The notes under the pieces are model-generated. The model was not told the origin of the DNA. It saw only the letters and a program-made list of their open reading frames with translations, and ran no database searches. A DNA stretch of 64,000 nt. Source: Slackia heliotrinireducens DSM 20476 (lineage in GTDB: Bacteria; Actinomycetota; Coriobacteriia; Coriobacteriales; Eggerthellaceae). Below, piece after piece: positions 28,049-56,397 of this stretch. Each line of letters starts with the position of its first letter. Positions within the stretch are counted from its first letter, which is position 1. Both the position numbers and the translations under genes were made by a program. Location of the stretch: assembly GCF_000023885.1 (NCBI RefSeq), contig NC_013165.1, forward strand, positions 310,001 to 374,000. The letters are read 5' to 3'.

Positions 28049-28056
28049 TAATCCTA
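28049..28056. repeat. Target-site duplication TAATCCTA, right
   Basis: Second copy of the 8-base duplication made by IS256 copy B. Both copies sit in the same codon phase (T AAT CCT A). Confidence 0.85.
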
Positions 28057-35774: not shown

Positions 35775-35796
35775 GAGCCAAGTAAGAGGAGCTAGA

Positions 35797-39607: not shown

Positions 39608-41692
39608 CTAAAGCTTCATATACGTAATCTCAAACTGCTTGACCATGCGCATCTCTTGGACGCGGCTTTCAATTGCAAACGCATTACCGCTGTCGAATTT
39701 TTGCCAGATGTCGAGTCCGCGGTCGAGCAGAATGTCCCACTTGTCGTCGATTACGAAATGACGAGCATGAATGGTGTTTGTATCGTCGAAATCCCACTCT
39801 AACGTCAGACCGAACGGATGCAACGCATCTGCAATCTGGCACAGATAGTCATCTTGCTTCACTGGGTCGTACTGGTCCGGACATGTGAGCAGGTGCACGT
39901 GTATTTCCGGAACGCAGTAGTCGAAGTGGGTAATAATGACCTCGAGAACCTCCATCAGGTTTCGACACTGGTGGAACGTTCGAATGTAAGGGTCGATAAT
40001 CTCGATGCTCCGTGCGCCTTCGAGATACGGGCCGAAAAGCTTCTCGTACGACACTCCTCGTTGGTTCTCGCGATACGACTTATGTCCGACGAATGGACCT
40101 TCGTCTGCCTTACTCACGATAGCGCTTTGCGACAATTGAAGATCAGGATTCTCGGGAACTGATGCGTCATCCATGGAAAGCAGAGGTTCCTCAGCGTCCC
40201 TTCTCTCCCAAGGCACTTTATCGCGCGAGTGGTACGTGTTCGGGAAGTTGATTTCCTCTAGCGTTGACACCTCGCGCCATTGCCCGCCTATCTCTCGGTA
40301 CGAGAAATCGACCCTTGCGAATGTCTCGTCGATGCGGTAGAGCTGGTCTTTGACACGTTTTCGCATCTCCAAGGCGAACTCGATAATCTCGGCCTCTTCC
40401 TCGATCGTCGCATTCTTTCCTGGGAACAGGAGCTTCATGAGGCCCGAGTAGGTTTTCATGACTCCGTCGCGGTCGCGCGTCGAGAGAGTTTCGGACAGCT
40501 CGAATCGCTCCCAGAGCTGTCCCGAGTAATCGAGGCCACGCAGACTGCGCAGCGCTTCTGCAAGGTAATCCACGATGAAGCCGTAGTCGGTGCAGAACAT
40601 CTCGCCGCGGATGATGTCGACCTCCCATCCCGGGATATAGGCGTGAATGCGGTCGATGAACGCTGGATCGTGGTAGACCTTCGGCAGGTCCTCGAACAGG
40701 TCAGTCTGGTTGATCATGTAAGCGACATCGTGACTCGTGTTGCCGACAAACGCCATCGAAGCCTCGGCGGTAACCTGCTCGATGCCGCGGCTGAAGCTCT
40801 TGTTAGCCATGTAGTTCTTCAAGATGTCCACGATGTCGGCCTTCGGGCGCTTGTTAACGCCTGCGAATTCGTCGAAAGCGACGCAGTCCCAATAGCCGAC
40901 GAGGCCGATGCGTCCGGTTGAGTTGTTCACAAACAGCTTTGCCGGCGTCACTTCGCCGCCTGAGATAAGGATGCCGTGAGGGCTGAACTCACTGAACACA
41001 TGGCTCTTGCCAGTGCCTTTAGGGCCCAACTCGATTAGATTGTAATTCCGTTCGCAATAGGTGACGAGGCGAGTCAATTGGAAGAGCTTTGAGCGCTTCC
41101 CGAGCTGCTCTGGGTCGAGCCCGATACTTCTGATGATTACATCCAGCCATTCATCGACGGTGAATCTTGTGCGCTTCTCTATGTACCCGTCGAGATCGAA
41201 CCGCGCCATCTGGATCGGTTTAAGCTGCTGGAGCAGATAAGGCGACTCATCCTTCGCCTCGTTTGGGCTGTAGCCGATATCAGCGACGCACCAGACGCCG
41301 GATACCAGAAGGCGCCTGTTACGCTTCACGGTGTCCGAGTCGACGAGCACCCGCGATATGCCAAGGTTTTCGAACGTCGCCTCATAGGCGTCGCGCTTCT
41401 CGTTGAGCATAACGGATACTTTATCGATGACGCGCATGTAGCCCGATTGTTTGATGTCGCTGCGTATTGCCCCCGCCTCGGCTCGCTGCACGTAATGTTT
41501 CGCGAGGATATCGCGAACGCGCTCCACGCCCGCGGCAATCTGCTCCTCATCATCGGTAGCGCAATTTTGCCCGAGCAGGTATTCGAGCACGTAGCTCGGA
41601 ACGGCGGCATTACCGCGCACCAGTTTTACGAGGTCCTTACGGACAACGTAACCGGTGAAGATTTCATTAAGCTTCCTATCGAGTTCGTTCAT
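39608..41692 (-). CDS. brxL: BREX Lon-like protease BrxL
   Basis: A 694-residue BrxL. The AAA+ core shows Walker A LIELGPKGTGKSHVFSEF (near residue 222) and a Walker B-like CVAFDEFAGV (near 270). The C-terminal 130 residues (KLFGPYLEGARSIEIIDPYI) match the MIT_C-like domain seen in BrxL proteins. The gene starts MNELDRKLNEIF after GGAGATATCCG. BrxL forms DNA-encircling hexamers and is part of type 1 BREX. Its stop TAG is embedded in the TAGGAGG of the next gene, the CD-NTase. Confidence 0.9.
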   Translation of the reverse strand: MNELDRKLNEIFTGYVVRKDLVKLVRGNAAVPSYVLEYLLGQNCATDDEEQIAAGVERVRDILAKHYVQRAEAGAIRSDIKQSGYMRVIDKVSVMLNEKRDAYEATFENLGISRVLVDSDTVKRNRRLLVSGVWCVADIGYSPNEAKDESPYLLQQLKPIQMARFDLDGYIEKRTRFTVDEWLDVIIRSIGLDPEQLGKRSKLFQLTRLVTYCERNYNLIELGPKGTGKSHVFSEFSPHGILISGGEVTPAKLFVNNSTGRIGLVGYWDCVAFDEFAGVNKRPKADIVDILKNYMANKSFSRGIEQVTAEASMAFVGNTSHDVAYMINQTDLFEDLPKVYHDPAFIDRIHAYIPGWEVDIIRGEMFCTDYGFIVDYLAEALRSLRGLDYSGQLWERFELSETLSTRDRDGVMKTYSGLMKLLFPGKNATIEEEAEIIEFALEMRKRVKDQLYRIDETFARVDFSYREIGGQWREVSTLEEINFPNTYHSRDKVPWERRDAEEPLLSMDDASVPENPDLQLSQSAIVSKADEGPFVGHKSYRENQRGVSYEKLFGPYLEGARSIEIIDPYIRTFHQCRNLMEVLEVIITHFDYCVPEIHVHLLTCPDQYDPVKQDDYLCQIADALHPFGLTLEWDFDDTNTIHARHFVIDDKWDILLDRGLDIWQKFDSGNAFAIESRVQEMRMVKQFEITYMKL

Positions 41693-41706
41693 CGGATATC
41701 TCCTGT

Positions 41707-42030
41707 TTACGCATATAACACTATACCTTCTACGAGCTTATCCCACTTAGCCTCTAGATAGTCAGCGTTTGCCACAACCCATTCTGAAGCTTCTGAGAGC
41801 TTTCGTCTCGATATGTTGCCCTCAATGACCTTGCCAGAAGGTATTTCAAGAACAACTTCTTTCCCTTGATACCTCGCATGCAAATGCGGAAGATTGTGGC
41901 CCCGTTCTTTTGTGTGAATCACAAATGTAATACCATTCTTATAACCGACCCTCCCGCGCTGGTATACGTAATCAAAAATCGAAACCCATTCTTTGAACTC
42001 TAAATTATCAAACAGTATTTCTTCGTGCAA
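41707..42030 (-). CDS. DUF4160 protein inside the BREX operon
   Basis: A 107-residue protein. ERGHNLPHLHARYQGKEVVL followed by EIPSGKVIEGNISRRKL (residues 42-78) is the DUF4160 pattern; relatives are usually encoded next to DUF2442 proteins in two-gene toxin-antitoxin-like modules. Here the DUF2442 partner is missing and the gene lies between the second pglX and brxL on the same strand. The start is TTG, seven bases after GGAGG; the pglX stop TAA falls within that spacer. A regulatory or accessory BREX role is possible (inference). Confidence 0.72.
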   Translation of the reverse strand: MHEEILFDNLEFKEWVSIFDYVYQRGRVGYKNGITFVIHTKERGHNLPHLHARYQGKEVVLEIPSGKVIEGNISRRKLSEASEWVVANADYLEAKWDKLVEGIVLYA

Positions 42031-42034
42031 TTGA

Positions 42035-45000
42035 TTACCTCCAATCGCTCAGTCCCTGGACCTTGGCCAGGGCATGCGGGAACTTGTTGTAGTTGATCTT
42101 GACGCCGTCGTCGAGGTCGATGGCCACGCGCTCGTGAGCGAGCGGGTACACGACCTCCTTCTCCCACGCCTCCAGCTCGGAGATCTGCGCGCGCATCCTG
42201 TCGGCGGCCTTTAGGTCGGCCGCCCGCTCCGAGCGCCCGAGCACCTGCACGCGCAGCCGAAGCTTGTCCTCGTAGGCGCGCAGGTACTTCGTGAGAATCT
42301 CTCCCACGGTACCCTCGCTGTATCGGTGCATGTAGACGAGGCACGAGAAGCCCTTCTGCGGGCTCTGGAACAGCCAGTAGATCGGCCTCTTCTGGTAGGT
42401 CTTGACATGGTCGGAGTAGAAGTCGCGCACGAAGTAGGTGCGCAGATCGCATCCCAGCGCCCCTTCGATGAAGGCGACGTTCTCGTCGAGGGTCGACTCG
42501 CCGTAGGCCGCCGCGAGGAATCGGTAGAACTGCGTGACGACGTCGTCGTCGAACCACTCGGCGTCGAGCACGGGCAGGATGTTGTCCTCGTCCGGCACGA
42601 AGGAGGGGTCGGGCACCTTGGCCAGGAAGTCCCTCGCGGTGTCGCCCTGGTTCGCGAGCACGAACCCGGGGGCGTCGAGCGAGTACCTGCCGAAGATGCA
42701 GCCTACGCCGTAGCTGATAAGGGACTTCACGTCGCGCTGGAGGTCGGCCAGGCGCACGCTCACCTTGTCGTCGGACACCTCGATGGGAACCTCACCCTCC
42801 ATGCCGTAGATGCGCGCGAATACTCGGTTGAGCTTCTCCTCATTTGCCTTTAGCTGGTCGAAGCGGCTCCGACACTCTGATTGCCACAAGGCGAATGCGT
42901 CTTCAACGCGGCTGGTCCGCGCAAGCGGGTGCCTCTCGAAGTCCCAGCTGGTCTCGAAGGAGTCCCAATCTTTACGAGCTACTGCGACATTAGTATCGAC
43001 AGTTCTTCTTACTTCATCGCATCGAGAATCATCATTCCAGGGAATACTGCCCAACTCTCGAATCTTTAAATGCATTGTTGGTGCCAATAATTCCAGGTAA
43101 CGTTTTGCAACACTCGAGTTCAGCAGCCCCAATAAGGCATTTCGGCTGTCATCATCAGGATAAATGCCCATACCAGTCATTTCAGAGAGATCGTTTGTTT
43201 TTAACCTGAATGATTGTTCGCCGCTTGTAACGTCAGACCATGTGATATACGGACGGAACTTTAAATCGTCACTATAATCTTGAGCATGGTTGCCATTTTT
43301 CTCAGCGCTTTCAAATGCGTATTTACCGTTTTCTCGCCAGTCCACGACGTATTCAGCATTACCGTACCACTTTCTAAAGGCTCCACCCTTGTTGCATGGA
43401 TACCAGCGATAGCCTTCAATAAAAGTTGCATCCGAGGAAACCCCATTAAAGAGTATCTTTCCTCTTGCAACTTCCCACCAGAATCTTAAAAAGGCTCCGT
43501 TGTTGCCCGTTTTAATCCCAACCGAAGCGCGTCCCAATGAAGCGACATTTCCTAAATTCCGAAAAGCTCCCATCATCGTCTCGCTTACCAAATAGGCAAT
43601 CGGACAGCCTGGTATTGTTTTAAAAAGGTCAGTGTCAGCTTTGTATAGCCAACCGCATTTTGGATTATGAATCGCATTCAAAAGGGCCGTGTCTTTTTCT
43701 GAGGTTCGATGGCTTAACTTGAAAAAAGAGCCTTTGACACCCGATAGGTGACCTTTCCCAAGAATCCATCCAGCATTTGCATCAAAAACATCGGGGTGCG
43801 CATTTGTTCCTCGTGTGTCTAAGAATGAATATAGAGTCGTTTGCTCAAGTATCTTTCTACGGAGCTTTTCGAACGACGAGATGTACATACAAGTGTCAGA
43901 AGTAATTATGCTTTCCACTCCATATTGCTTTGTGAAGTGTAAACAGCGTTCGATAAAACACGTACAGAGGTCGGCTTTGGCATCAGGATAATTCCCCTTA
44001 CACCATCTGCTTAGATAAGTACTCATATTGCCGCTTCCAAGATAGGGCGGGTTAGCTACCACGCAGTGGTAGGAGCCGGAGAGCGCCTCAACGTTCTCCA
44101 ACATGGCGCCGAGGCGTCCCGCGAGGTCCCTGGCGAACATGTCGGATTGCGCCTTCGGGGCGAGGCGCTCGATCTCGGCCGCTACCGCCCGGGCGTCCCC
44201 GGCCTCGGGGACGTAGAGGCTGCCGACCTCGCCCATGTGGGCCATCGCCTCGATGAGCCCGACCCGCTCCTTGAACGACTGGGAGAGATAGGGCATGTCG
44301 GCCTCGTCGAGGGCGACAGGGCGCAGGACGGTGACGTCGGCGTCCACGTCCCTCTCGAGGAAGCGCGGGTCGCGCTCCAGCGCCTTCATCTCGAGGGCGA
44401 ACTTGGCTATCTCCGCAGCGCGGGCGTCGATCTCGAGCCCCTTGAGGTTGTTCTGGAGGATCATGGCGGGGATCTCCTCGGGAAGCCAGCCCTCCTCCTC
44501 GTACATGGAGTAGAGCAGGTCGAAGGCGTACACGAGGATGTGCCCCGACCCGCAGGCCGGGTCGAGCACGCGGACCTCCTCGGCGGACGAGACCTCGATG
44601 TGAGGCTCGTCGCCCTCGGGCGCGATGTAGTAGTCCATCCGCTCGGCCAGAGGGGAGCCGGGATGGTTGAGCATCCACAGGCGCCCCAGCGAGTTCTCGC
44701 ACAGGTAGCGGACGATCCACTCGGGCGTGAACAGCTGGGTCGCCGGGCCTATCTCGGCGGGGCCCGCCTTCACGCTCCTTTTGAAGCCTGAATACACCTG
44801 ATCATGCAACTCGGCGATGTAGAACTGGTAGAGCCATCCGAGCACCTCGACCGACGAGCAGGCGCCGGCGTCCATCTCCGCGACGATGCGGCCCAGGATC
44901 GACCCCTCGGACAGCAGCCCCCGGGGCATGAGGAGGCTGGATGCGGCGTCCTCCGAGAAGAGGTACGGCATGGGCTTCGCGTAGTGCGCGCACACGGCGC

Positions 45001-45430
45001 GCAGCAGCTCGGCGTACGCGGCCTCCGTGGCGTTCGCGCGCTGCGTCGAGCCGGACAGCAGGGAGACGACCCTCTCGCGCACGGCGGGGGCGAGCCCGTA
45101 CTCGGGGTCGAAGGAGCCCTGCGCCGCGTCTGCGAGGACGGCGGGCATGGTCGAGCCGGCGCGCGGCGTCACGGCCGGCGTCGGCGTGTAGCCGCGGGCG
45201 TCCATGAAGCGCAGTGCGCACAGCCTGTTGAACCAGGTGTACGCCCCGGCCTCCACCACCGCGTCGCGCCCCTCGGCCTCGATCCTCGCCTCTAGCCGCA
45301 CAACCCCGGTCCCGTCCGAGAGCCTCTCCGGGCTGTCGGCGGCGAGCACCGCCTCGAGGCGTCCCTCAACCTCTCGGCGCAGCTCGTCGCGCACGCCGGT
45401 CGCCAGTCTCTTTATCCTGCTCGAGTCCAT
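42035..45430 (-). CDS. pglX: BREX adenine-specific methyltransferase PglX, copy 2
   Basis: An 1131-residue PglX, the m6A DNA methyltransferase that marks host DNA in BREX. Motif I VLDPACGSGHILVYAF lies near residue 286 and motif IV NPPYLGSGN near 462. It is almost identical to copy 1 over residues 1-460 (except a patch near 205-220: ELHDQVYSGFKRSVK) and over the last 240 or so. The middle (about 463-820), where target recognition is expected, is unrelated in detail. The start ATG is 5 bases past the stop of copy 1 with GGAAGTAAGAAG as ribosome site. The frame is open upstream of the ATG only because of GC bias. Confidence 0.92.
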   Translation of the reverse strand: MDSSRIKRLATGVRDELRREVEGRLEAVLAADSPERLSDGTGVVRLEARIEAEGRDAVVEAGAYTWFNRLCALRFMDARGYTPTPAVTPRAGSTMPAVLADAAQGSFDPEYGLAPAVRERVVSLLSGSTQRANATEAAYAELLRAVCAHYAKPMPYLFSEDAASSLLMPRGLLSEGSILGRIVAEMDAGACSSVEVLGWLYQFYIAELHDQVYSGFKRSVKAGPAEIGPATQLFTPEWIVRYLCENSLGRLWMLNHPGSPLAERMDYYIAPEGDEPHIEVSSAEEVRVLDPACGSGHILVYAFDLLYSMYEEEGWLPEEIPAMILQNNLKGLEIDARAAEIAKFALEMKALERDPRFLERDVDADVTVLRPVALDEADMPYLSQSFKERVGLIEAMAHMGEVGSLYVPEAGDARAVAAEIERLAPKAQSDMFARDLAGRLGAMLENVEALSGSYHCVVANPPYLGSGNMSTYLSRWCKGNYPDAKADLCTCFIERCLHFTKQYGVESIITSDTCMYISSFEKLRRKILEQTTLYSFLDTRGTNAHPDVFDANAGWILGKGHLSGVKGSFFKLSHRTSEKDTALLNAIHNPKCGWLYKADTDLFKTIPGCPIAYLVSETMMGAFRNLGNVASLGRASVGIKTGNNGAFLRFWWEVARGKILFNGVSSDATFIEGYRWYPCNKGGAFRKWYGNAEYVVDWRENGKYAFESAEKNGNHAQDYSDDLKFRPYITWSDVTSGEQSFRLKTNDLSEMTGMGIYPDDDSRNALLGLLNSSVAKRYLELLAPTMHLKIRELGSIPWNDDSRCDEVRRTVDTNVAVARKDWDSFETSWDFERHPLARTSRVEDAFALWQSECRSRFDQLKANEEKLNRVFARIYGMEGEVPIEVSDDKVSVRLADLQRDVKSLISYGVGCIFGRYSLDAPGFVLANQGDTARDFLAKVPDPSFVPDEDNILPVLDAEWFDDDVVTQFYRFLAAAYGESTLDENVAFIEGALGCDLRTYFVRDFYSDHVKTYQKRPIYWLFQSPQKGFSCLVYMHRYSEGTVGEILTKYLRAYEDKLRLRVQVLGRSERAADLKAADRMRAQISELEAWEKEVVYPLAHERVAIDLDDGVKINYNKFPHALAKVQGLSDWR

Positions 45431-45435
45431 GCTTC

Positions 45436-48400
45436 TTACTTCCAATCGCTCAGACCCTGGACCTTGGCCAGGGCATGCGGGAACTTGTTGTAGTTGATCT
45501 TGACGCCGTCGTCGAGGTCGATGGCCACGCGCTCGTGAGCGAGCGGGTACACGACCTCCTTCTCCCACGCCTCCAGCTCGGAGATCTGCGCGCGCATCCT
45601 GTCGGCGGCCTTTAGGTCGGCCGCGCGCTCCGAGCGTGAGAGCACCTGCACGCGCAGCCGAAGCTTGTCCTCGTAGGCGCGCAGGTACTTCGTGAGGACC
45701 TCGCCCACGGTGCCCTCGTTGTAACGGTGCATGTAGACGAGGCACGAGAAGCTCTTCTGCGGGCTCTGGAACAGCCAGTAGATCGGCCTCTTCTGGTAGG
45801 TCTTCACGTGGTCGGAGTAGAAGTCGCGCACGAAGTAGGTGCGCAGGTCGCACCCGAGCGCCCCCTCGATGAACGCGACGTTCTCGTCGAGGGTCGACTC
45901 GCCGTAGGCCGCCGCGAGGAAGCGGTAGAACTGCGTGACTATATCGTCGTCGAACCACTCGGCGTCGAGAACGGGGAGGATGTTGTCCGCGTCGGGCACC
46001 AGCGTCGGCTCGGGCACTTTAACCAAGTAGTCGGCGACCGTTGCGCCCTGGTCGGCCAGCACGAGGCCGGGGGCGTCGAGCGAGTAGCGGCCGAATATGC
46101 AGCCGACGCCGTAGCTGATGAGCGACCTCACGTCGCGCTGCAGGTCGGCGAGGCGCACGCTGACCTTGTCGTCGGGCACCTCGATTGGCACCTCGCCCTC
46201 CATGCCGTAGATGCGCGCGAAGATCCGGTTGAGCTCCTCCTCGTTGGACTTCAGTATTTCGAAGCGGTCTCGGCACTCTGATTGCCACAGCGTGTACGCA
46301 TCGGCGACGCACTCGGTCCGCACGAGCGGGTGCGTCTCGAAGTCCCAGCTCGTCTCGAAGGAGTCCCAGTCGGATTTGGCTAAGGAAACGTTTTCACTGA
46401 CAGCTGCTTCGACCAATCTGAGATCGAACTCCGAAAAAAGAGCTGGGGCTTTTGCAACAACACCTGAGTTGTAATGAAGCGTTGGATTGAGCATTTTCAG
46501 TATTTCTGACATAACCGAACTATTCATTAGACCCAAATAATACAGAATGTGACTGCGAGGAAACATTGATGACCCACTTGAATCAAAGATAGTCCCTGCG
46601 GGCGAATAACGGAATCCCGGCATTCCTGTACATAATTCAGTCCAAGTTAGCGATTCCGCAAAATACATTTCTTCGCTGCGGACTTCCTTGGTATAACTGC
46701 CCCCATTGTATTTGGACGTGATTAGCGCCTTCACCTCCGCGCCATCATCTTCCCAATTTACAAAGCATTCCCTATTCCCATACCATTTTCTAAAATCTCC
46801 TCCCTTATCATATGGGAACCATTTGCAACGTGATGCTTTAGCAACATCAGCATTTTCGGCAGTCAAGCATACTTTGTCTGCAGATACCTCATGCCACAAT
46901 CTAAGGAAGTGACCATTATCAGTTGTTGTTAATCCCTTTCTCGGCCGACCGTCAACTGACAGCGGCGTTCCGTTCAAAAATGCGCTTTTCATACCGTTGC
47001 CTACCCAATAGGCAATTGGCATTCCAGGAATTATTTTATAGTCGCTGACATAAGCACGATATAGCCAAGTGGAAGATGCGTCGCATATTGCTTTGCGGCA
47101 GATTGATGACTTGTTCGCCTCGCCAAGAAAGTCAACCAAGCGAATATACGTACCTTCCCTTTCACTATCTTTAATATGCTGGAATATCGTTGCTGTCGTG
47201 GAAACAACCTCTCCGCCAATTGCGTCGAATGCTCGTGCACCTAAATGCGCCATAGATATGATGCATTCGTGATTGATGATTTTCTCACGCATCTTTTCGT
47301 AGGAGCTGAGGAACATCCAGCTTTGCATAGTTATGAGGGCGCTGTAGCCTCGACGCAGATTGAAGCGCTTTGCTCGCTCAATAAAGCATGTGCATAGGTC
47401 CGCCTTCTCGTCTGGATAGTTTTCCTTTACAAAGTCGCTTGCGGGTTTGTAAAGGGTGCTGGTCCCCATGTACGGCGGGTTGGCCACCACGCAATGGTAG
47501 GAGCCGGAGAGGGCCTCAACGTTCTCCAACATGGCGCCGAGGCGTCCCGCGAGGTCCCTGGCGAACATGTCGGATTGCGCCTTCGGGGCGAGGCGCTCGA
47601 TCTCGGCCGCTACCGCCCGGGCGTCCCCGGCCTCGGGGACGTAGAGGCTGCCGACCTCGCCCATGTGGGCCATCGCCTCGATGAGCCCGACCCGCTCCTT
47701 GAACGACTGGGAGAGATAGGGCATGTCGGCCTCGTCGAGGGCGACAGGGCGCAGGACGGTGACGTCGGCGTCCACGTCCCTCTCGAGGAAGCGCGGGTCG
47801 CGCTCCAGCGCCTTCATCTCGAGGGCGAACTTGGCTATCTCCGCAGCGCGGGCGTCGATCTCGAGCCCCTTGAGGTTGTTCTGGAGGATCATGGCGGGGA
47901 TCTCCTCGGGAAGCCAGCCCTCCTCCTCGTACATGGAGTAGAGCAGGTCGAAGGCGTACACGAGGATGTGCCCCGACCCGCAGGCCGGGTCGAGCACGCG
48001 GACCTCCTCGGCGGACGAGACCTCGATGTGAGGCTCGTCGCCCTCGGGCGCGATGTAGTAGTCCATCCGCTCGGCCAGAGGGGAGCCGGGATGGTTGAGC
48101 ATCCAGAGGCGCCCCAGCGAGTTCTCGCACAGGTAGCGGACGATCCACTCGGGCGTGAACAGCTGGGTCGCCGGGCCTATCTCGGCGGGGCCCGCCTTCT
48201 TGTTCTTCTTGAAGCCGGCGAACACCTCGTCCTTGCGCTCGGCGATGTAGAACTGGTAGAGCCATCCGAGCACCTCGACCGACGAGCAGGCGCCGGCGTC
48301 CATCTCCGCGACGATGCGGCCCAGGATCGACCCCTCAGACAGCAGCCCCCGGGGCATGAGGAGGCTGGATGCGGCGTCCTCCGAGAAGAGGTACGGCATG

Positions 48401-48858
48401 GGCTTCGCGTAGTGCGCGCACACGGCGCGCAGCAGCTCGGCGTACGCGGCCTCCGTGGCGTTCGCGCGCTGCGTCGAGCCGGACAGCAGGGAGACGACCC
48501 TCTCGCGCACGGCGGGGGCGAGCCCGTACTCGGGGTCGAAGGAGCCCTGCGCCGCGTCTGCGAGGACGGCGGGCATGGTCGAGCCGGCGCGCGGCGTCAC
48601 GGCCGGCGTCGGCGTGTAGCCGCGGGCGTCCATGAAGCGCAGTGCGCACAGCCTGTTGAACCAGGTGTACGCCCCGGCCTCCACCACCGCGTCGCGCCCC
48701 TCGGCCTCGATCCTCGCCTCTAGCCGCACAACCCCGGTCCCGTCCGAGAGCCTCTCCGGGCTGTCGGCGGCGAGCACCGCCTCGAGGCGTCCCTCAACCT
48801 CTCGGCGCAGCTCGTCGCGCACGCCGGTCGCCAGTCTCTTTATCCTGCTAGAGTCCAT
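45436..48858 (-). CDS. pglX: BREX adenine-specific methyltransferase PglX, copy 1
   Basis: An 1140-residue PglX with motif I VLDPACGSGHILVYAF near residue 286 and motif IV NPPYMGTST near 462. The N-terminal 460 residues and the C-terminal 240 are nearly the same as in copy 2 at DNA level, while the central specificity region (for example FDAIGGEVVSTTATIFQHIK) differs. Start ATG follows TAGGAAG, which overlaps the pglZ stop. It comes before copy 2 in the transcript. Both copies look intact, so the cell may methylate two sequence motifs, or the pair may exchange recognition regions by recombination. Confidence 0.93.
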   Translation of the reverse strand: MDSSRIKRLATGVRDELRREVEGRLEAVLAADSPERLSDGTGVVRLEARIEAEGRDAVVEAGAYTWFNRLCALRFMDARGYTPTPAVTPRAGSTMPAVLADAAQGSFDPEYGLAPAVRERVVSLLSGSTQRANATEAAYAELLRAVCAHYAKPMPYLFSEDAASSLLMPRGLLSEGSILGRIVAEMDAGACSSVEVLGWLYQFYIAERKDEVFAGFKKNKKAGPAEIGPATQLFTPEWIVRYLCENSLGRLWMLNHPGSPLAERMDYYIAPEGDEPHIEVSSAEEVRVLDPACGSGHILVYAFDLLYSMYEEEGWLPEEIPAMILQNNLKGLEIDARAAEIAKFALEMKALERDPRFLERDVDADVTVLRPVALDEADMPYLSQSFKERVGLIEAMAHMGEVGSLYVPEAGDARAVAAEIERLAPKAQSDMFARDLAGRLGAMLENVEALSGSYHCVVANPPYMGTSTLYKPASDFVKENYPDEKADLCTCFIERAKRFNLRRGYSALITMQSWMFLSSYEKMREKIINHECIISMAHLGARAFDAIGGEVVSTTATIFQHIKDSEREGTYIRLVDFLGEANKSSICRKAICDASSTWLYRAYVSDYKIIPGMPIAYWVGNGMKSAFLNGTPLSVDGRPRKGLTTTDNGHFLRLWHEVSADKVCLTAENADVAKASRCKWFPYDKGGDFRKWYGNRECFVNWEDDGAEVKALITSKYNGGSYTKEVRSEEMYFAESLTWTELCTGMPGFRYSPAGTIFDSSGSSMFPRSHILYYLGLMNSSVMSEILKMLNPTLHYNSGVVAKAPALFSEFDLRLVEAAVSENVSLAKSDWDSFETSWDFETHPLVRTECVADAYTLWQSECRDRFEILKSNEEELNRIFARIYGMEGEVPIEVPDDKVSVRLADLQRDVRSLISYGVGCIFGRYSLDAPGLVLADQGATVADYLVKVPEPTLVPDADNILPVLDAEWFDDDIVTQFYRFLAAAYGESTLDENVAFIEGALGCDLRTYFVRDFYSDHVKTYQKRPIYWLFQSPQKSFSCLVYMHRYNEGTVGEVLTKYLRAYEDKLRLRVQVLSRSERAADLKAADRMRAQISELEAWEKEVVYPLAHERVAIDLDDGVKINYNKFPHALAKVQGLSDWK

Positions 48859-48870
48859 TTGCTCTACTTC

Positions 48871-51441
48871 CTAAAAATCCATGCCGAAAGCGCGGTTGAC
48901 GGAGTATTCTTGCTCCCATGCGCTCTCATATGCGTTCGTATTGCCTATGCGCGCCGAAATCCTTACTACGACGCTTGCGCAATCGTCGACCTCGTCGATG
49001 AGCGGCATCGTCACGCGAGTCTTGCGCGTTTCGACGTCGTCGGACTCGCTGGCGAGTTCGATGGTCTTCTCCGTGGCGCTCACGAGAGCGCCGTCCTTCG
49101 AGTACACGCCCACCTTTACGGTCTGCGGCGAAACCGATTCGCTGCAAGGGTCGGACTGGTAGACAGTGACCGAGACCGAAGGGCCGGTGACAACTGGCCT
49201 CCCTATGACAAAGCCTTCGACTCCCGTTGGGCGTGAAGCCTTGGCGCCTTTTGCTGCCTCGACGGTGATGACTGGAACGACGTTCTCCTGCAGTGACGCC
49301 CCGCCGTGAACGAATCGCGACCCGCTGCCGGAGAGCCTGAGCCTGGTCACGCCCTTCGGGAACGCCACGTTGTAATCGCCTTCGAGCGACAGGTCCACCG
49401 CAGCGTACTCTACGAGCGATTCGCTCTTGGGGATGCTCTTGCCCACCACGAAACGTCTGGTATGGTCGCAGCTCACGTCGTCGGCCGACTTGAGCTGCGA
49501 GAGGCCGGGAACGTCCACGTAGGCGTATGTCTCCGGGTTTTGGGATTGGTAGATGAACCCATGGTCGCTCGTAATCACGACCTTTCCGCAACCCGATTGA
49601 ATGAGCGCCTGGACCAGCTTCTCGATTTCTGCGCAAGCACGCTCAACAGCTTCGAAGACGTCGCCCTCTGTGTCGCGCGTGTCCCCGGTCTTGTCGATGA
49701 CGTTGTGGTAGACGACAGCCACAGGGGCATCGGAAAGGTCGAGCTTTGTGCCCATGACGTCTTTGGCCTGCAGCGCCACGGCGCCGGGTATCCGGGCAGA
49801 AATTATCTTGCCCCGGTTCGCGGTCCCCCAAGTCGGAGCACCGGCCTTGCGCACATACGTTGTAGCCGGGTCGATCTCCATTGCCCCGTCGGGGAGGAGG
49901 GCAGCCATGCCGAGCTGGGTGTAGCTGGGTATGGCGCTGAGCGCGTATGCGCACTTGACTGCGGCTCTGCCGGCGATTCCCTTCAGCTTTGAGGCGGAGA
50001 GCCTCGACGCGAGGTCGCTTCCGGCCTCGTACCTCAGGGCGTCGGAAACGATGACGCCGACTCGTTTGCCCCGTTCAGCCCTGGGAAGGGCAAGCTCGAC
50101 GTGCTCCCTGAAGAACCTTGATTGGGATGGCAGCTCGGACGGGGGCCAGGCTCCGTCGTCCATCAGGTGCATCTGCCAACGATCGGTCAGGTCCACGAGG
50201 AACAGGTCGTACGCGCCGCGGAGCTCGTCCATGGCCTTGGTCATGGACGACTTGAACCTGCCGGCGGGCACCCTGTCGAACGCGAGGTGCGCCTCGCGGT
50301 AGCGCCTATCGACGAGATGCCAGGCGGAGCAGTACTTCTCGAGTATCTGCGCGGTCCCCGTTCCGGAGCCGCATTCCTTCTTGTATCGGGCGCATTCCGA
50401 CCTGAAGCCGGTTATTGCGATGAGGAGGCTGTAATAGGCGCCGTATCTGTAATGGTACAGGCTGTGCTTCCTTGCGTCGCGCACGCGCTCCATCGCTGCC
50501 GAGCTCGTGCTCGAGGCGGACACCTCCGCCGCGAAGCCCGAGAGGATCCATTCGTCGATTTCGGGTATCGCGTCGACCTCCGACAGCGTCTCAGCCGTCC
50601 TCATATCTTGCGGCACCAGCGCGGCGACGGCCTTGGAGTATTCCTGCACGACGCGGTCGAACTCGTCTCTCGTTCGCCCGTCGCGGGCGAGGTCGCCAAG
50701 GATCCTGGAGGCTTCCGCGTCATCGGCTCGCATATCGTCTTGGACGATCGGGCCGCACATGCCCTCCAAGAGTCTGAACGCCAGGTCGCCCGCGTTCGGT
50801 GCGTCCCCCTCTCCGACCCGGTAGCCGATATGTTCCCTCATGGCCGCCCAGAAAGTTCCAGACAGACCGGCGTCGACCAGCATGCGCATGGACTGCTCGT
50901 CGCCGCGCGCCCACTCGAGGACGGCCTTCTTGGCCATCGAGCGTGCCGCATCCCTTTCCTCCGCGTCGGCTGCCTTCATGGTTGCGGCGGCCATCGCGAA
51001 GAGAAAGCTTTGAGTGCCCGATTTCGGAAGGGACGTAGCCGCGAGCGCGGCCCTCCGCTCCTTGCTGTTGAAGAAGGCCGCATGGTCGGCCAACATGCCG
51101 GCGAGAGTGACGGGTATTCCGCATTCGTCCGCCCAGACGCCCTCCATCGAACAAGAAAAGGGCCTTGCCGCGATCTTGACGTCGAGCAGCAGGTCATCGG
51201 CGGGATTTGGCGCGCCGCCGTGGCGGTAGACCACGAACCTCTTGCCGGGCTGCTCCCTCAGGATTGTCCTCTTCGTTGCGAGTTCGTGTCCTGTCGCGTC
51301 GACGATATCGGCCCCTTCAATCTTGAGGCCTTCGATCGAGTCGGCGTATTCCGAGGACTCGTCCTCCCAGAAGACGAGCCTCGTGCTGTGCCCGAACGCC
51401 GCCTTCAACCTGTTTTCGATTTCGCTGTATTCGATGTCCAT
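48871..51441 (-). CDS. pglZ: BREX phosphatase-like protein PglZ
   Basis: An 856-residue PglZ of the BREX-1 type. The alkaline-phosphatase-like core shows GVIVSDALRYEAGSDLASRL near residue 466 and KVVITSDHGFIYQS near 625, with metal-binding Asp/His residues in both. The C-terminal part is a beta-rich domain. Start ATG (MDIEYSEIENRL) is 7 bases past the brxC stop (TAGGAGAGACATG), so translation is coupled. PglZ is a core component required for BREX methylation and defence; its precise activity is debated. Confidence 0.92.
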   Translation of the reverse strand: MDIEYSEIENRLKAAFGHSTRLVFWEDESSEYADSIEGLKIEGADIVDATGHELATKRTILREQPGKRFVVYRHGGAPNPADDLLLDVKIAARPFSCSMEGVWADECGIPVTLAGMLADHAAFFNSKERRAALAATSLPKSGTQSFLFAMAAATMKAADAEERDAARSMAKKAVLEWARGDEQSMRMLVDAGLSGTFWAAMREHIGYRVGEGDAPNAGDLAFRLLEGMCGPIVQDDMRADDAEASRILGDLARDGRTRDEFDRVVQEYSKAVAALVPQDMRTAETLSEVDAIPEIDEWILSGFAAEVSASSTSSAAMERVRDARKHSLYHYRYGAYYSLLIAITGFRSECARYKKECGSGTGTAQILEKYCSAWHLVDRRYREAHLAFDRVPAGRFKSSMTKAMDELRGAYDLFLVDLTDRWQMHLMDDGAWPPSELPSQSRFFREHVELALPRAERGKRVGVIVSDALRYEAGSDLASRLSASKLKGIAGRAAVKCAYALSAIPSYTQLGMAALLPDGAMEIDPATTYVRKAGAPTWGTANRGKIISARIPGAVALQAKDVMGTKLDLSDAPVAVVYHNVIDKTGDTRDTEGDVFEAVERACAEIEKLVQALIQSGCGKVVITSDHGFIYQSQNPETYAYVDVPGLSQLKSADDVSCDHTRRFVVGKSIPKSESLVEYAAVDLSLEGDYNVAFPKGVTRLRLSGSGSRFVHGGASLQENVVPVITVEAAKGAKASRPTGVEGFVIGRPVVTGPSVSVTVYQSDPCSESVSPQTVKVGVYSKDGALVSATEKTIELASESDDVETRKTRVTMPLIDEVDDCASVVVRISARIGNTNAYESAWEQEYSVNRAFGMDF

Positions 51442-51448
51442 GTCTCTC

Positions 51449-54400
51449 CTAGATGGAAACGATGTCTCCGCCCGAAACGACTGCTACGATCGAGGCCCTG
51501 AGGGCAGCGAGGTATTTGTCAACATCGTCCTCGGTCGTGATGGCGGGTTTGCTGTACCCCTTTGCCGACAGGCTCGTGACCGGGATGGTCTTCGGAACGT
51601 GCACCGGCGGCACGTCGTCATCATCGGGAGGCGTGGGCACGTCGATTGGCGGCGTGACGGGAGGTGCCGGTTTTGGGGTCACGAGCTCGAGCAGACGAGC
51701 TGCCTTGTCCTTCTTGAAGTCCTCGGTGAACGATTTGATCTTGTACGGGATGCGGATAAGGCCCAGCTGCTCCTCTGCCTCTGAGAACAGGCCGTCGAAC
51801 TCCTCGGCCGCCTCCTGCGGGAGCGCGGCGATATCGTATGTACCCTCGTATGAGGCCCTGTACTCGGCGAGCTTCCTTCTCTCAGCATCCCTCAGGCTCG
51901 CGCGCGCGGATTCGGCCTCTTTCTTCAGGGCCTCCATCTGCTTGGCTGCCTGGGGTATCCCGGAGTTCTTGAAGCATTCCGGATCCTCCACGATCGCGCT
52001 GATCGCTGCGACTCCCTCGTCGACGATACCAAGCTCGGTGAGGTGTGCCGCCTCCGACGCCATGAAGGACCTCAGCTCGAGCCACCGCTTGCTCATCGGC
52101 GACCCCCCGGCGAACGAGGCCATCTTTTTCAGATCGCTCGTCGCGTCGGCGTACTCCTGTGCTTTTGCTGGGAACTCGCCGAGAGCCCATCTCCAATCCG
52201 ATGCGTTCTTAGCGCACTCCTCGACCTTCGCAAGCGCCGCTTCATAGGCGTCGCCGAATGGGTAAACGTGCGCTGCAGAGGCGGTTGACCCGAAGCCTTT
52301 GGCGAGGGATGCGGCTACCTCGGCTAGCTCCGAGGCGATCGTCTTCTGGTCCACGCCCTTGGGCTGCGTGCCGGCGAACAGCTTGAATGCGCGGCTGAGC
52401 GCGGCGATGTCCTCGGGCGATACCTCGTCGATGGTTGAGACCACCAGCTTATCGAGGTCCCGCTTCCTTTTGAGGGCGTCAGCCAGCGCCGACTTCTCGA
52501 GCGGGGACCCCGACTTCCGGACCTCGATCTTGTTCGCGGCGAAGAGCCGCGCTATCGCGGAGCGGACCGCGATTTCCGGCCAGCCGTACTCGTTCTTGAT
52601 GAAGTAACCCGTCAGGCTGCCTGAGCCGTCGCCTGCGACGGTCGACGCGACCGCCCCCTTGGTGAGCCTGATTCGAGAGAGGACCGTCTCGCAGTACTCC
52701 GGGAGGCCGAAGGCCGCCTCGGAGGAGAAGCACTGCGTGTATACGTCGTTGTCGCTGAATTTCTGCCCGATCTGTTGCAGTCCCGTGTATGACCTGCGGA
52801 CGAGCTCCTGTGTTGCGGACTGGACGGCGTCTGCCGCGGTGCCTGTCACCTGGCCGGTGATATCGACCCCTCCCGCATTGTACCGGGCGTCGGACAGGAG
52901 CTGGGCTAGCTCGTCCTTGAGCCTGGCGTAGAGCTTTCCGTTCGCCACCTGCTTGTCGTGTAGGATGGCTTCCCGAATTTCGCCGGCGCCGCTGTGGACG
53001 CCCGTGTACGTCTCGGTCTGCTTGAACGTCCTCACGCCTATCAGGAACTCCTTGCAGTTTCGGAGCTCGATCGTGAGCGTCTTGGGTGGCGTGGGCACTA
53101 TGTCGCCGAACAGCCCGCCGTCATCGCGGTCGGTGACTATGTCGACCGTGAGGTCGTTCTTCTGCAGGCCCTGGGCCTCGCCGTCGATCTTGAGGTTGTA
53201 CAGGTACGAATGCTCGAATGAACCGTTCCGATACGTGACCCTGGTCGCGCCGCACACGTCCTTGAAGAGCTCCGCAATCTGCTTTCTCGTCTCCACTTCT
53301 GGGACGATGGTGTTCGCGATCTCCTTCTCGACTTCCTTCTCGTCGTTGGTCAGGTACTCGTAGATGTTGCCGTTGCGCCTGACGTAGACCTGCTCTTCAA
53401 GGGTGTCGAGCGCGTCGCGTATCTTTCCGTTCAGCTCGCTCGTGCTCTCGCCGAAGGACCCGTACAGTAGCACGCGCAGGTTCCCAGGCGTCGCCCTGAA
53501 GTCCTGGCAGTACTTGACGAGTAGGAGCGCCTTGAGCAGGCGCACCGCCACCTCGTCGTCGAGCTGGTCCTCTGCCGTGGAGATTGCGGCGTACACCTCG
53601 CTCTTGAGGTCGTTGCGCAGGCCCTCGAACATCAGGTCGAAGGGTGCGAGCGTCCCCTGCTCGGTGCTGGCGCCGGCGTCGCATATGCGCTGCGCGACCA
53701 TCTGGAAGACGCCGAGCATCGATCGGGCTCCGGTGGAGTTGTGCCTGCCCGTGAAGCAGTTGTGGTCCGACAGTCCGCGCAACGCGGTCATGAACACCTC
53801 GAACTGGTAGGGCACGAAGGGATAGGTGTCGCAGAACTCCTGTGCCCCCTGGTACTGCTTGTAGCGCTTGGCGCCGTCTGCGAAGTCGAACAGAACGTCG
53901 AAGTCGGCACGGTACTCCTCGTACATCTCTTCCAGGAAGGGCTCGTCCCCTGGATGCTTTGCCAGGAGCCTGTCGCGTATGACCTCCTTCGCGTCTGACG
54001 ACGTGAGCACCATCCTCGTCTTGAAGCGGTCCTTGATCTTCGAGAAGTCGTTGGCGCTGATCTGCTTCATCTGGCCGACGACATCCTCGACGTTCTCCTG
54101 CGAGGTGACGATGACCCAGGAGTCCCCGTGGCAGAAGTTGTCGAGCTCCTCGGCGATGGTCTGGAGGTTCACCATTAGGCTCGTGTTCTGGGCTATGAAC
54201 TGCCCGACCTCGTCGACGAAGAAGTTGAGCCTGAAGCCTTTCCCGTGCTCGGCGATGTAGGCCTGGACGCGTTGTGCGAACATGCGGATATCGGGCTTGT
54301 AGGTCTGCTGGTAGTAGCTGATGACGTTTGCGGTCGTGCCCTCTGGGTTTCCGCATACCTCGTCGAATGCCGACGTGATCTTCTTTCCGTAGAGCAGCGA

Positions 54401-54991
54401 TGAGGAGCGAACCTGCTCCCAGGGCTTGCCGCAGAGCTCCTCGACCCTCGCCTTGAACGCTTCGAAGTGGCCTTCGCGGTCGAGGTCGTACTCGAGCTTG
54501 GCGATGTGCTGCTGGTCCCCGTCGAAGTACCCGCAGTGGTGGTTGAACGCCTTGATGAAGGCAGAGAGTATCGCGCCTGCTTCGGAACGGCCCGCGTTGG
54601 GCGCGAAGCTGTCGATGTTGAACAGCACGCTTTCCGATGGGTGCCTCAGCCTCGACTGCTCCATCGCCGCTGCAAGCGCTGGCGTGTCCGACAGCTTGGG
54701 GAGGATGTAGTCCATGGCGCCCCTGCCGTCCACCTGCCTGTCCTCCATGACGACGGCCATGATCTTGAGCAGGTGGGACTTGCCGCTCCCGAAGAAGCCC
54801 GAGATCCACGCACCGTTGCCCGCGGAGTCGGGGTCGTTGTACTCGTCGAAGAATCGCTGCAGGTGCGACTTCGCCTCGTTCGTGATGACGAACTCCTCCA
54901 GCTCGCTCTTCAGATGCCCGAGCTCGTTCGCCTTGACGACAGGGTCGATTGGGCGATAGATGTCCTTGAGGAAGGTGTCCTTCAGCAGCAT
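51449..54991 (-). CDS. brxC: BREX P-loop ATPase BrxC
   Basis: An 1180-residue BrxC, the large ATPase of BREX. The N-terminus MLLKDTFLKDIYRPIDPVVK and the P-loop ISGFFGSGKSHLLKIM (residues 64-79) are family hallmarks; a second ATPase-type acidic motif is in RLNFFVDEVGQFIAQN near 256. Long coiled-coil stretches occur late in the protein, followed by a proline/aspartate-rich linker (near 1120) and a basic tail. The start ATG follows GGAGTGACGAA, which overlaps the brxB stop. Confidence 0.93.
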   Translation of the reverse strand: MLLKDTFLKDIYRPIDPVVKANELGHLKSELEEFVITNEAKSHLQRFFDEYNDPDSAGNGAWISGFFGSGKSHLLKIMAVVMEDRQVDGRGAMDYILPKLSDTPALAAAMEQSRLRHPSESVLFNIDSFAPNAGRSEAGAILSAFIKAFNHHCGYFDGDQQHIAKLEYDLDREGHFEAFKARVEELCGKPWEQVRSSSLLYGKKITSAFDEVCGNPEGTTANVISYYQQTYKPDIRMFAQRVQAYIAEHGKGFRLNFFVDEVGQFIAQNTSLMVNLQTIAEELDNFCHGDSWVIVTSQENVEDVVGQMKQISANDFSKIKDRFKTRMVLTSSDAKEVIRDRLLAKHPGDEPFLEEMYEEYRADFDVLFDFADGAKRYKQYQGAQEFCDTYPFVPYQFEVFMTALRGLSDHNCFTGRHNSTGARSMLGVFQMVAQRICDAGASTEQGTLAPFDLMFEGLRNDLKSEVYAAISTAEDQLDDEVAVRLLKALLLVKYCQDFRATPGNLRVLLYGSFGESTSELNGKIRDALDTLEEQVYVRRNGNIYEYLTNDEKEVEKEIANTIVPEVETRKQIAELFKDVCGATRVTYRNGSFEHSYLYNLKIDGEAQGLQKNDLTVDIVTDRDDGGLFGDIVPTPPKTLTIELRNCKEFLIGVRTFKQTETYTGVHSGAGEIREAILHDKQVANGKLYARLKDELAQLLSDARYNAGGVDITGQVTGTAADAVQSATQELVRRSYTGLQQIGQKFSDNDVYTQCFSSEAAFGLPEYCETVLSRIRLTKGAVASTVAGDGSGSLTGYFIKNEYGWPEIAVRSAIARLFAANKIEVRKSGSPLEKSALADALKRKRDLDKLVVSTIDEVSPEDIAALSRAFKLFAGTQPKGVDQKTIASELAEVAASLAKGFGSTASAAHVYPFGDAYEAALAKVEECAKNASDWRWALGEFPAKAQEYADATSDLKKMASFAGGSPMSKRWLELRSFMASEAAHLTELGIVDEGVAAISAIVEDPECFKNSGIPQAAKQMEALKKEAESARASLRDAERRKLAEYRASYEGTYDIAALPQEAAEEFDGLFSEAEEQLGLIRIPYKIKSFTEDFKKDKAARLLELVTPKPAPPVTPPIDVPTPPDDDDVPPVHVPKTIPVTSLSAKGYSKPAITTEDDVDKYLAALRASIVAVVSGGDIVSI

Positions 54992-55002
54992 TTCGTCACT
55001 CC

Positions 55003-55605
55003 TTACAGGTCGAATACTCGGGTCGCACGGTAGTAGCCTCCGGTCGTACCCTGGTCGAGGTTGAGTATGTTCAGCGAGGTGGAGCCGTCGCTGCGGCGCT
55101 CGAAGCGCCCGGGGAACACGAGGACTACGGGCTTCGTGGCGCTCATCTCTTGAAGCAATGTGTGGGTTCTCACGTACGGATAGGTCTCCCCGACGCCAGT
55201 AATGAACACGATGTCGGCGTCCGGGTTATCCTCGATGGCCGCATTGACCGCCGGGGCTATGACGTCGCGCACGCTGACGGTGTCCTGGAGCATCATGATG
55301 AGCTCCTCGCGCGAAGCATCGGGTTCCGCCTCGACAAGGGGCTCCCACATGCCCTGTTCGTCGAGGAATGCGAGCACGATGTCGTAGAGGTTCACGACGA
55401 GTGGGCGCACCGAACGGGCAGGCAGGTCGGATTCGCATATCGCCCGCACGAGGTCCCTCGCGTAGGGTTCCTGTTCTGGTTTGTAGTCCAGGACGTAGAG
55501 CGCGTTTCTCATCATGTAGCCGCCCCTGCCAAGGAGAGAATTCTCGGAAAGCTTCTCGACGATGAAGGAGCGTGCATCGTTGATGTGCTCGAATTCCGCA
55601 GACAT
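55003..55605 (-). CDS. brxB: BREX protein BrxB (DUF1788)
   Basis: A 200-residue BrxB. FVGVGETYPYVRTH-like family sequence appears here as FITGVGETYPYVRTHTLLQE near residue 138, followed by VVLVFPGRFE near 160. The start ATG shares its A with the brxA stop (TAATG). The frame extends 40 codons further upstream into brxA, but without family-like sequence. It is a small core protein of type 1 BREX with unclear function. Confidence 0.9.
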   Translation of the reverse strand: MSAEFEHINDARSFIVEKLSENSLLGRGGYMMRNALYVLDYKPEQEPYARDLVRAICESDLPARSVRPLVVNLYDIVLAFLDEQGMWEPLVEAEPDASREELIMMLQDTVSVRDVIAPAVNAAIEDNPDADIVFITGVGETYPYVRTHTLLQEMSATKPVVLVFPGRFERRSDGSTSLNILNLDQGTTGGYYRATRVFDL

Positions 55606-56195
55606 TAGATCAGCCTCCCCGGGAACAGCCGCAGGTCGTCTTTCCTGGACGGATCGAGGGCGTTTTTGAACATTGGCGTTGGATATAGCGGTGTGATCCG
55701 AGCATCTTCGGAGAGCAGCTTGCATTCCGCGAGCATGAGGAATACTTGGTTCCGCATTTTCTTCCTACCCTCGTCCGACAGCGCTGTCAGCTCAGGGTGA
55801 ATCTCTGCCTGCTCTTCGAAGAACGCATCGTATGCTTCCATGGTGAAGTCTGGAATTGTCCTGTTGTACCTGCCGGCGATCATCTGCTCCGACAGATCCC
55901 TCACGAATTGGTACGTCCTGCATACGGCCACCCAGAACATGGCGCATCTGTCGTCTCCGTATGATCCTTGCAGGAATTCGAGTTCGGCGTCCGTCAGCGT
56001 GCGGAGTCGCTTCACTATCTCGCCAGTGACCCGCTTTCGCGAGCTCACGGCATTTAGCTGGAAAAGGTTCTCGTCAATGATTCTCCTGCGGACCTCGCTC
56101 CAGTCCTTAGTCTCGTTGTATATCTCGACGGCCAGCATGCTCTCCTGCATGCGCACCTTCGAGCCACTCATTGACAGGCTGTAGTTCGACGACAT
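55605..56195 (-). CDS. brxA: BREX protein BrxA (DUF1819)
   Basis: A 196-residue BrxA. The N-terminus YSLSMSGSKVRMQESMLAVE and NLFQLNAVSSRKRVTGEIVK near residue 43 match DUF1819, an all-helical DNA-binding-type BREX component. The start ATG (MSSNYSLSMS) lies one base after the stop of a small RHH-like gene, with GGTGA as the nearest ribosome-site-like bases, so it probably depends on translation of that gene. Confidence 0.9.
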   Translation of the reverse strand: MSSNYSLSMSGSKVRMQESMLAVEIYNETKDWSEVRRRIIDENLFQLNAVSSRKRVTGEIVKRLRTLTDAELEFLQGSYGDDRCAMFWVAVCRTYQFVRDLSEQMIAGRYNRTIPDFTMEAYDAFFEEQAEIHPELTALSDEGRKKMRNQVFLMLAECKLLSEDARITPLYPTPMFKNALDPSRKDDLRLFPGRLI

Positions 56196-56196
56196 T

Positions 56197-56397
56197 TTAA
56201 TCACCGGACTCTTCGAAGAGCTCTTTGTTCGCAATCAGCTCGTCAAGGGCAAGGGATGTCAGCAGAGCTGACACGCTCACGCATTTTTCCTCGGCAACCT
56301 TCTCGATAGCGGATTTCATCTCCGGGGTCGCGGCGAAGATAATCCTGTCAGTCTTCTTGTTTCCGAGCACGTGTTTCCTCAGCTCGTTCTCATCCAT
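56197..56397 (-). CDS. Small ribbon-helix-helix-like protein heading the BREX operon
   Basis: A 66-residue protein (MDENELRKHVLGNKKTDRII, then FAATPEMKSAIEKVAEEKCV and SVSALLTSLALDELI). The short strand followed by two amphipathic helices fits the ribbon-helix-helix fold of small DNA-binding repressors. The start ATG follows GGAGAAAGG; an in-frame TTG two codons earlier is possible. It ends one base before brxA and is therefore the first gene of the BREX-CBASS transcript. A repressor of the operon is the simplest reading; a helper role is possible. Confidence 0.65.
   Translation of the reverse strand: MDENELRKHVLGNKKTDRIIFAATPEMKSAIEKVAEEKCVSVSALLTSLALDELIANKELFEESGD

Follow-up and report, generated by a model that had tools for sequence, protein, structure and literature searches.

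Why should a single phage-defence operon hold two full-length genes for its specificity factor, and why should these genes be so alike at their ends and so different in their centres? The question is raised by a 64-kb stretch (positions 310001-374000, hereafter the window) of the one-contig, 3.17-Mb genome of Slackia heliotrinireducens DSM 20476 (NC_013165.1), which contains a complete type I bacteriophage exclusion (BREX) set with two tandem pglX genes, the upstream pglX-B (copy B) and the downstream pglX-A (copy A). PglX has been reported as the sole specificity factor of BREX. Judging from the sequences, it is rather probable that one BREX operon employs here two PglX specificity subunits, which would read different DNA motifs and would be kept alike by gene conversion except at the parts that touch DNA.

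Two pglX copies with shared ends and divergent centres

All six genes of the type I set (brxA, brxB, brxC, pglX, pglZ and brxL) were matched with PADLOC, and they lie on the minus strand in the order brxA-brxB-brxC-pglZ-pglX-B-pglX-A-DUF4160-brxL (Table 1). Type I BREX further entails m6A methylation of a non-palindromic 6-bp site and exclusion of phage DNA that lacks it. A first-pass annotation, made from the sequence alone, had recognized two tandem pglX genes, an identification that was borne out by the match of both copies to pglX and by their uninterrupted reading frames. The ATG of pglX-A at 45430, the start as taken, is found 5 nt past the stop of pglX-B, and a listed open reading frame (ORF) of 1,307 aa from 45958 corresponds to the open frame extending back into copy B. 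A third pglX was not found in the genome (four candidates scored, two matches), and neither terminator-like nor promoter-like sites were found on the minus strand of 41600-49200, which is weak evidence for the reading with two subunits in one operon. The copies are the same as BrxX of E. coli HS (9EWZ) and PglX of Salmonella D23580 (8C45/8Q56) in domain plan, catalytic motifs and fold, and like them combine methyltransferase and specificity factor in a single chain. The gamma-class methyltransferase motifs were present, the BrxX fold including the C-terminal domain was matched, and profile A2 aligned with 8c45 and 9ewz over nearly the full length. Copy A is also predicted to have a BrxX-like fold by its AlphaFold2 model (mean predicted local distance difference test score, pLDDT, 89.5), whose best PDB matches were Salmonella PglX (8q56) and E. 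coli BrxX (9ewz).

Self-BLAST of the whole window revealed that its two longest self-matches are the ends of the two pglX genes. The 5′ repeat (44043-45443 against 47471-48871) is 98.1% identical over 1,404 columns, and the 3′ repeat (42035-42967 against 45436-46368) is 89.7% identical over 936 columns; these ends had been described earlier as nearly base-for-base copies, with coordinates that agree within about 25 bases, a description that holds for the 5′ end but not for the 3′ end. Between the repeats, protein identity is 31% over residues 487-820. This centre comprises the part of the methyltransferase domain after NPPY together with the target-recognition domain, and is where specificity should lie, as the first-pass annotation had supposed. 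The differences are nevertheless not confined to the centre, since a 38-bp patch in the 5′ part also differs. The GC content at third codon positions (GC3) breaks from 92-95% at the ends of both copies to 37-61% in the centres, which fits imported DNA and the duplication with recognition-domain replacement that had been suggested.

Synonymous divergence (dS) between the copies is 0.012 along codons 1-207, 1.58 in codons 208-220, again 0.012 in codons 221-449, and saturated in codons 464-800. Nonsynonymous divergence (dN) is zero in both conserved N-terminal stretches, residues 225-463 of copy A match copy B, and the longest perfect run of the 5′ repeat extends over positions 755-1347 in the numbering of the copy-to-copy comparison. 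In the C-terminal part dN is far lower than dS, and the identity of the 3′ repeat climbs toward its 3′ end, with dS falling from 0.51-0.85 (four stretches, codons 827-980) to 0.04 (codons 1101-1140). This profile supports gene conversion between the copies, as had been anticipated. The repeats were correctly taken as direct, and no inverted repeat of at least 30 nt was found in 40000-52000 (seed 14). The window gave no Phage_integrase or Resolvase match, against eight and three matches in the genome (other recombinase families were not searched). Given direct repeats and no such match, homologous recombination is the evident route of exchange. Inversion of pglX is known in some lactobacilli; as an explanation of this locus, phase-variable inversion was rejected because the repeats are direct, both copies lie on the minus strand and have no inverted partner, and the window has no integrase or resolvase match.

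A 38-bp patch of high divergence

The first 1,340 bases of the two genes contain 19 differences, 16 of which are packed into a single 38-bp patch (codons 208-220), the other three being scattered single substitutions, all synonymous. This patch of 13 residues is located 0.7 kb upstream of the divergent centre, before the ATQLFTP motif, and includes residue 209, which is His in copy A and Lys in copy B. Its dS corresponds to 4.8 synonymous changes over 7.3 sites, and the sequence of low, high and low dS along the N-terminal half therefore indicates an old or imported allele surrounded by DNA that was homogenised recently, rather than newly arisen amino-acid changes in a cluster. The GC3 of the patch is 61.5% in copy A and 100% in copy B; elsewhere in the N-terminal part no window of 13 codons falls below 76.9%, and this comparison makes the patch of copy A the odd one of the pair.

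The residues of both copies were mapped to E. coli BrxX by alignments of low identity, read by eye. The start of the patch aligns with BrxX residues 225-226, so that K226, a residue of BrxX that contacts the DNA backbone, corresponds to Lys209 in copy B and to His209 in copy A. According to the report on the BrxX-DNA structure (PMC11842806), K226, K515, K522 and K533 form the positive lining of the upper jaw, and the last three of these come after NPPY (508-511). Five of the six base-reading features of BrxX, with contacts as given in that report, differ between the copies: the equivalents of R751 (Arg in B, a gap in A), K681 (Lys in B, Val in A), D684 (Thr in B, Lys in A) and Q784 (Ser in B, Met in A), and the sixth-base loop, which is E. 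coli-like in B and divergent in A. The equivalent of N823 is His in both copies. With so many base-reading features differing, two different DNA motifs are to be expected for A and B, as far as alignments of such low identity allow. From the His rule of PMC11341690 one may weakly predict that in both motifs a G directly precedes the methylated A, other positions being different. In the model of copy A, the patch corresponds to the end of helix 195-217 plus the loop following it, and the sole stretch with pLDDT below 50, residues 541-550, is at the position of the sixth-base loop of BrxX, as judged by eye.

Covariation of the patch across the PglX family

A wider set of PglX proteins was assembled from 174 matched frames, of which 162, the two window proteins among them, were kept for coverage of residues 150-800, leaving 140 after removal of near-duplicates. 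Coupling was assessed from pairwise patch distances with backbone distance corrected, relying on partial Mantel tests and on disjoint nearest pairs; these tests were exploratory, and the segment test tried 13 segments. Outside its own neighbourhood, the patch was most coupled to residues 461-473, that is, NPPY and the positions just after it (r 0.32 with p 0.0005, the top rank among 542 sliding windows), and the same window ranked first when the 33 Coriobacteriia (0.46) and the 107 others (0.29) were taken separately. Across 68 disjoint nearest pairs it again ranked first, of 271 windows (partial rank correlation rho 0.53, p 0.0002). The segment test coupled the patch to residues 464-486 (0.20, p 0.001); correlations were also obtained, under a different control, with 226-290 (0.34, p 0.001) and 291-370 (0.23, p 0.001), and there were weak ones with 140-204 (p 0.04) and 521-560 (p 0.03). 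The recognition domain was not coupled to the patch (611-700, r 0.04; 701-820, r 0.01). Column-level mutual information was dropped, being too noisy at about 113 effective sequences.

Particular residues followed the same trend. Position 209 is Lys in 132 of the 140 proteins, 112 of the 140 combining Lys209 with Met464; His209 pairs with Leu464 in three of three proteins (copy A, L060 and L163), and Asn209 with Ile464 in four of four. In copy A both partners, 209 and 464, have thus changed together, although residues 225-463 match copy B. Phe469 accompanies a short patch in 20 of 20 proteins, against 38 of 116 others, in a count that covered 136 of 141 rows (L103, L106, L114, L144 and L147 fell outside the search pattern); 18 of those 20 are Coriobacteriia, and in the other proteins the association does not reach significance (p 0.13). 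The Fisher tests on these counts, for residues 209 and 464 as for Phe469, ignore relatedness.

Other tandem pairs and the mobility of recognition domains

Among 129 loci (genome contigs gave 80 and viral contigs 33, with 16 others; a few are duplicates), two long pglX genes were found side by side in six distinct loci besides the window (L170, L092, L156, which equals L155, L157, L121 and L166). Their centres are 28-33% identical over residues 487-820 and their ends are better conserved, if not always near-identical: those of L156 and L157 are merely about 63-87% alike, and the copies of L092 are 1.7 kb apart with an insertion in copy 1. A patch island is present in L166, in which 7.5 of 9.2 synonymous sites are changed in the patch, with dS of 0.52 and 0.30 beside it. 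On these alignments, the window and the six loci would fit a class for which we propose the term concerted tandem pglX pair, characterized by tandem full-length copies whose ends are more alike than their centres.

The second copies of L170 and L092 have a 97% identical recognition domain and identical post-NPPY residues 461-480 on clearly different backbones, which is evidence that such domains travel; a transfer of the PglX specificity domain between backbones is probable in this case. Composition also suggests that PglX recognition domains are often imported, as 25 of 43 pglX genes with high-GC3 ends (from 113 genes, a few of them counted twice) show a fall of over 15 points in the recognition domain, and 2 of 43 show one in the patch. 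Averaged over these 43 genes, GC3 is about 82% at the ends and about 60% in the recognition domain.

No sister strain or close relative was found in the genus (12 genomes, its own included), the family (138) or a class sample (396), the best full-length match being 62%. The nearest full-length PglX are 59-62% identical, and shorter pieces 65-77%; plasmid records gave no near-DNA match and proteins below 60%, and the PglX matches of phage records were at 33-45%. In the class sample, 39 genomes had a match at an E-value of 1e-150 or better, two full copies being present in this genome only. Three of the nearest relatives, in which pglZ lies upstream of pglX (L057, L058 and L059), have one pglX each, and the contig of L061 ends inside pglX.

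Weighing the explanations

The two-specificity explanation can be set out as follows. Copies A and B would share one backbone and read different motifs, the shared BREX machinery methylating the host and restricting phages at two sites. A foreign recognition segment would have entered one copy or both, after which gene conversion between the two would have homogenised the rest of the N-terminal half; the 38-bp patch would have stayed different because it must, as proposed, match the post-NPPY segment, with which it would form one DNA-contacting surface. We infer that both copies are expressed and active on different motifs, that import of the segment brought the patch along, and that selection preserved the patch. 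The locus is thus probably a type I BREX with two specificities whose pglX genes evolve in concert, pointing to a two-part recognition cassette, and tandem pairs would serve as natural experiments, because gene conversion erases all but the parts that must differ. The general rule, namely that PglX specificity is a bipartite cassette in which the 13-residue patch must match the post-NPPY segment and segment exchange is productive only together with the patch, is tentative and somewhat doubtful. The first-pass annotation had also envisaged collapse of the pair to one hybrid gene, which may occur, and domain swapping between the copies. Because an exchange that ends between patch and centre, whether by crossover or by conversion, would produce a mismatched enzyme, selection probably limits free swapping.

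Several observations weigh against this explanation. The GC3 of patch A is intermediate, exceeding that of 98% of the 13-codon windows in the centre of copy A, and for this reason, and because 13 codons are few, its import with the centre is not proved. Without the tandem members, the 461-473 window ranks fifth of 271 (61 pairs, 0.45, p 0.0002), and seventh of 271 when Coriobacteriia are also removed (46 pairs, 0.45, p 0.001); windows near 241-249 and 273-281 then outrank it, so the coupling of the patch to the post-NPPY segment is not exclusive. All four Asn209 rows come from Bacteroidota records and are not independent, and Leu464 is found with Lys209 in 12 proteins, so that it does not require His209. 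The patch island is seen in only two of the seven tandem pairs, the window and L166, the copies of L166 diverging again from residue 371 onward; those of L121 begin to differ at about the patch and remain divergent as far as the hinge, in L170 the patch is identical despite different centres, and in L156, L157 and L092 the pattern is equivocal. The second copies of L170 and L092, for all their shared recognition domain, have patches just 80% alike. Finally, copy A is without the near-invariant Lys209 and has more derived residues in 861-1140 than copy B (15 against 7, three undecided, as judged by six relatives), so it may be the weaker copy.

These last two features are what would be expected if copy A were a decaying or dominant-negative duplicate, and the patch a neutral leftover of patchy conversion. 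This reading is quite unlikely in view of the intact frame of copy A, a dN well below dS in its C-terminal part, its confident BrxX-like model, the constant pairing of His209 with Leu464 and the covariation of the patch across the family. The pair could also be a recombinational reservoir, in which no more than one copy is functional at any time, or ever, and the tandem genes are kept as material from which homologous recombination makes pglX alleles that are new or collapsed, the result resembling phase variation of pglX. The long direct repeats with their perfect runs are good substrates, the dS profile carries the footprint of gene conversion, and phase variation of pglX is stated to be common in one report (PMC11341690). 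Both frames are however complete and closely spaced, the genome holds no further copy, the window lacks an integrase or resolvase match, and conversion spared the patch, so that we consider a reservoir unlikely. Mixed A/B complexes needing both motifs, and thereby having a new compound specificity, would be permitted by the near-identical N-terminal domains, and two PglX monomers per complex have been speculated upon (PMC11341690); this is very improbable, as E. coli BrxX was seen on DNA as a 1:1 complex (PMC11842806). An assembly artefact, joining in tandem the pglX alleles of two strains, is scarcely credible: a 1.4-kb repeat could confuse short-read assembly, but the genome is one contig, 99.89% complete with 1.23% contamination, and a similar architecture occurs at six other distinct loci.

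Relation to known systems and implications

The systems of E. coli HS and Salmonella are described in their reports with one PglX, whereas two are placed here after pglZ. Lactobacillus rhamnosus has a full-length and a partial pglX; here neither gene is partial, the two lie next to each other in direct orientation, and the window yielded no integrase match. In Helicobacter pylori methyltransferases, specificity domains are reported to be exchanged among conserved backbones and also inside a single one, as here (PMC3983042, PMC3077401); unlike that exchange, the present one occurs in a BREX tandem pair and is accompanied by a separate patch. Attempts to retarget PglX often fail. In one report, defence was lost in three loop hybrids that combined BrxX of E. 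coli with that of E. fergusonii (PMC11842806), and in another, of 23 designed mutants, 18 were judged inactive (PMC11341690). If there is a naturally matched patch, it would provide a concrete rule for designing exchanges of BREX specificity. Likewise, if two motifs are indeed read, tandem pairs would show one BREX operon guarding both at once, raising the cost of phage escape. No description of tandem pglX pairs or of patch-to-NPPY coupling was found in the open-licence literature searched.

Gene set, neighbouring genes and split PglX

The features of the locus are collected in Table 1. The true start of brxB is probably about 40 codons inside its ORF.

Table 1. Coordinates of the BREX genes, pglX repeats, centres and patches in the window.
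Feature	Position	Strand	Details
brxL	39608..41692	-	PADLOC BrxL 1122 bits
DUF4160 gene between pglX-A and brxL	41707..42030	-	Pfam PF13711, 64.9 bits; low GC, 42%
pglX-A, downstream copy	42035..45430	-	1,131 aa; PADLOC PglX 1271 bits
3′ repeat, C-terminal domain, copy A	42035..42967	-	89.7% to 45436-46368
Divergent centre, copy A: post-NPPY segment, sixth-base loop, target-recognition domain	42968..44042	-	GC3 37-43%
5′ repeat, copy A (genic part)	44043..45430	-	98.1% to copy B counterpart
Patch, copy A, codons 208-220, LHDQVYSGFKRSV	44772..44809	-	16 differences to B; dS 1.58 vs 0.012 in both flanks
pglX-B, upstream copy	45436..48858	-	1,140 aa; PADLOC PglX 1351 bits; ATQLFTP, DPACGSGH, NPPY present
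3′ repeat, C-terminal domain, copy B	45436..46368	-	self-BLAST
Divergent centre, copy B	46369..47470	-	GC3 39-61%
5′ repeat, copy B (genic part)	47471..48858	-	self-BLAST
Patch, copy B, RKDEVFAGFKKNK	48200..48237	-	family-typical; Lys209, as in 132/140 PglX
pglZ	48871..51441	-	PADLOC PglZ 2053 bits
brxC	51449..54991	-	PADLOC BrxC 1460 bits
brxB	55003..55725	-	PADLOC BrxB 467 bits, residues 41-240
brxA	55605..56234	-	PADLOC BrxA 275 bits

Of the PglX detected in Coriobacteriia, most are split: one gene (about 820-880 aa) encodes the methyltransferase and recognition domain and stops at the hinge (WDSFETSWDF...), and another encodes the C-terminal domain (for example L053 15001-19350, L033, L054, L056 and L066). 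Beyond those of this genome, the 396 genomes gave 45 C-terminal matches, of which 36 fall in separate frames of 263-367 aa (contig ends truncate some of these) and nine in longer frames. The halves occur in either order, the C-terminal gene coming first in G068, G298, G308, G387 and G390, and differing open frames are found between them (L053 17521-18120; L033 838-1503; L055 8473-10829; L056 8985-9792; L066 6539-13413; L067 8803-9333). Two of these frames were tested for Pfam domains without a match; that of L033 contains, by eye, an RNxxxH-like HIRNSLAHG, presumably reminiscent of HEPN RNases. No paper on BREX PglX in Coriobacteriia was found in the open-licence literature searched.

The BREX set stands in a defence island, flanked by two GmrSD-type genes, of which one has both domains and the other just the N domain, and by a cyclase with a two-transmembrane (2TM) effector (35710-37608, 38173-39598 and 59853-62036). 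The cyclase and its 2TM (SLATT_4) effector, of the cyclic-oligonucleotide-based antiphage signalling system (CBASS) type, come after the BREX set. The third-longest self-match of the window joins 1-561 to 27490-28050, a repeat of 561 bp without a mismatch, and has a frame that we take to be the end of an IS256-type transposase.

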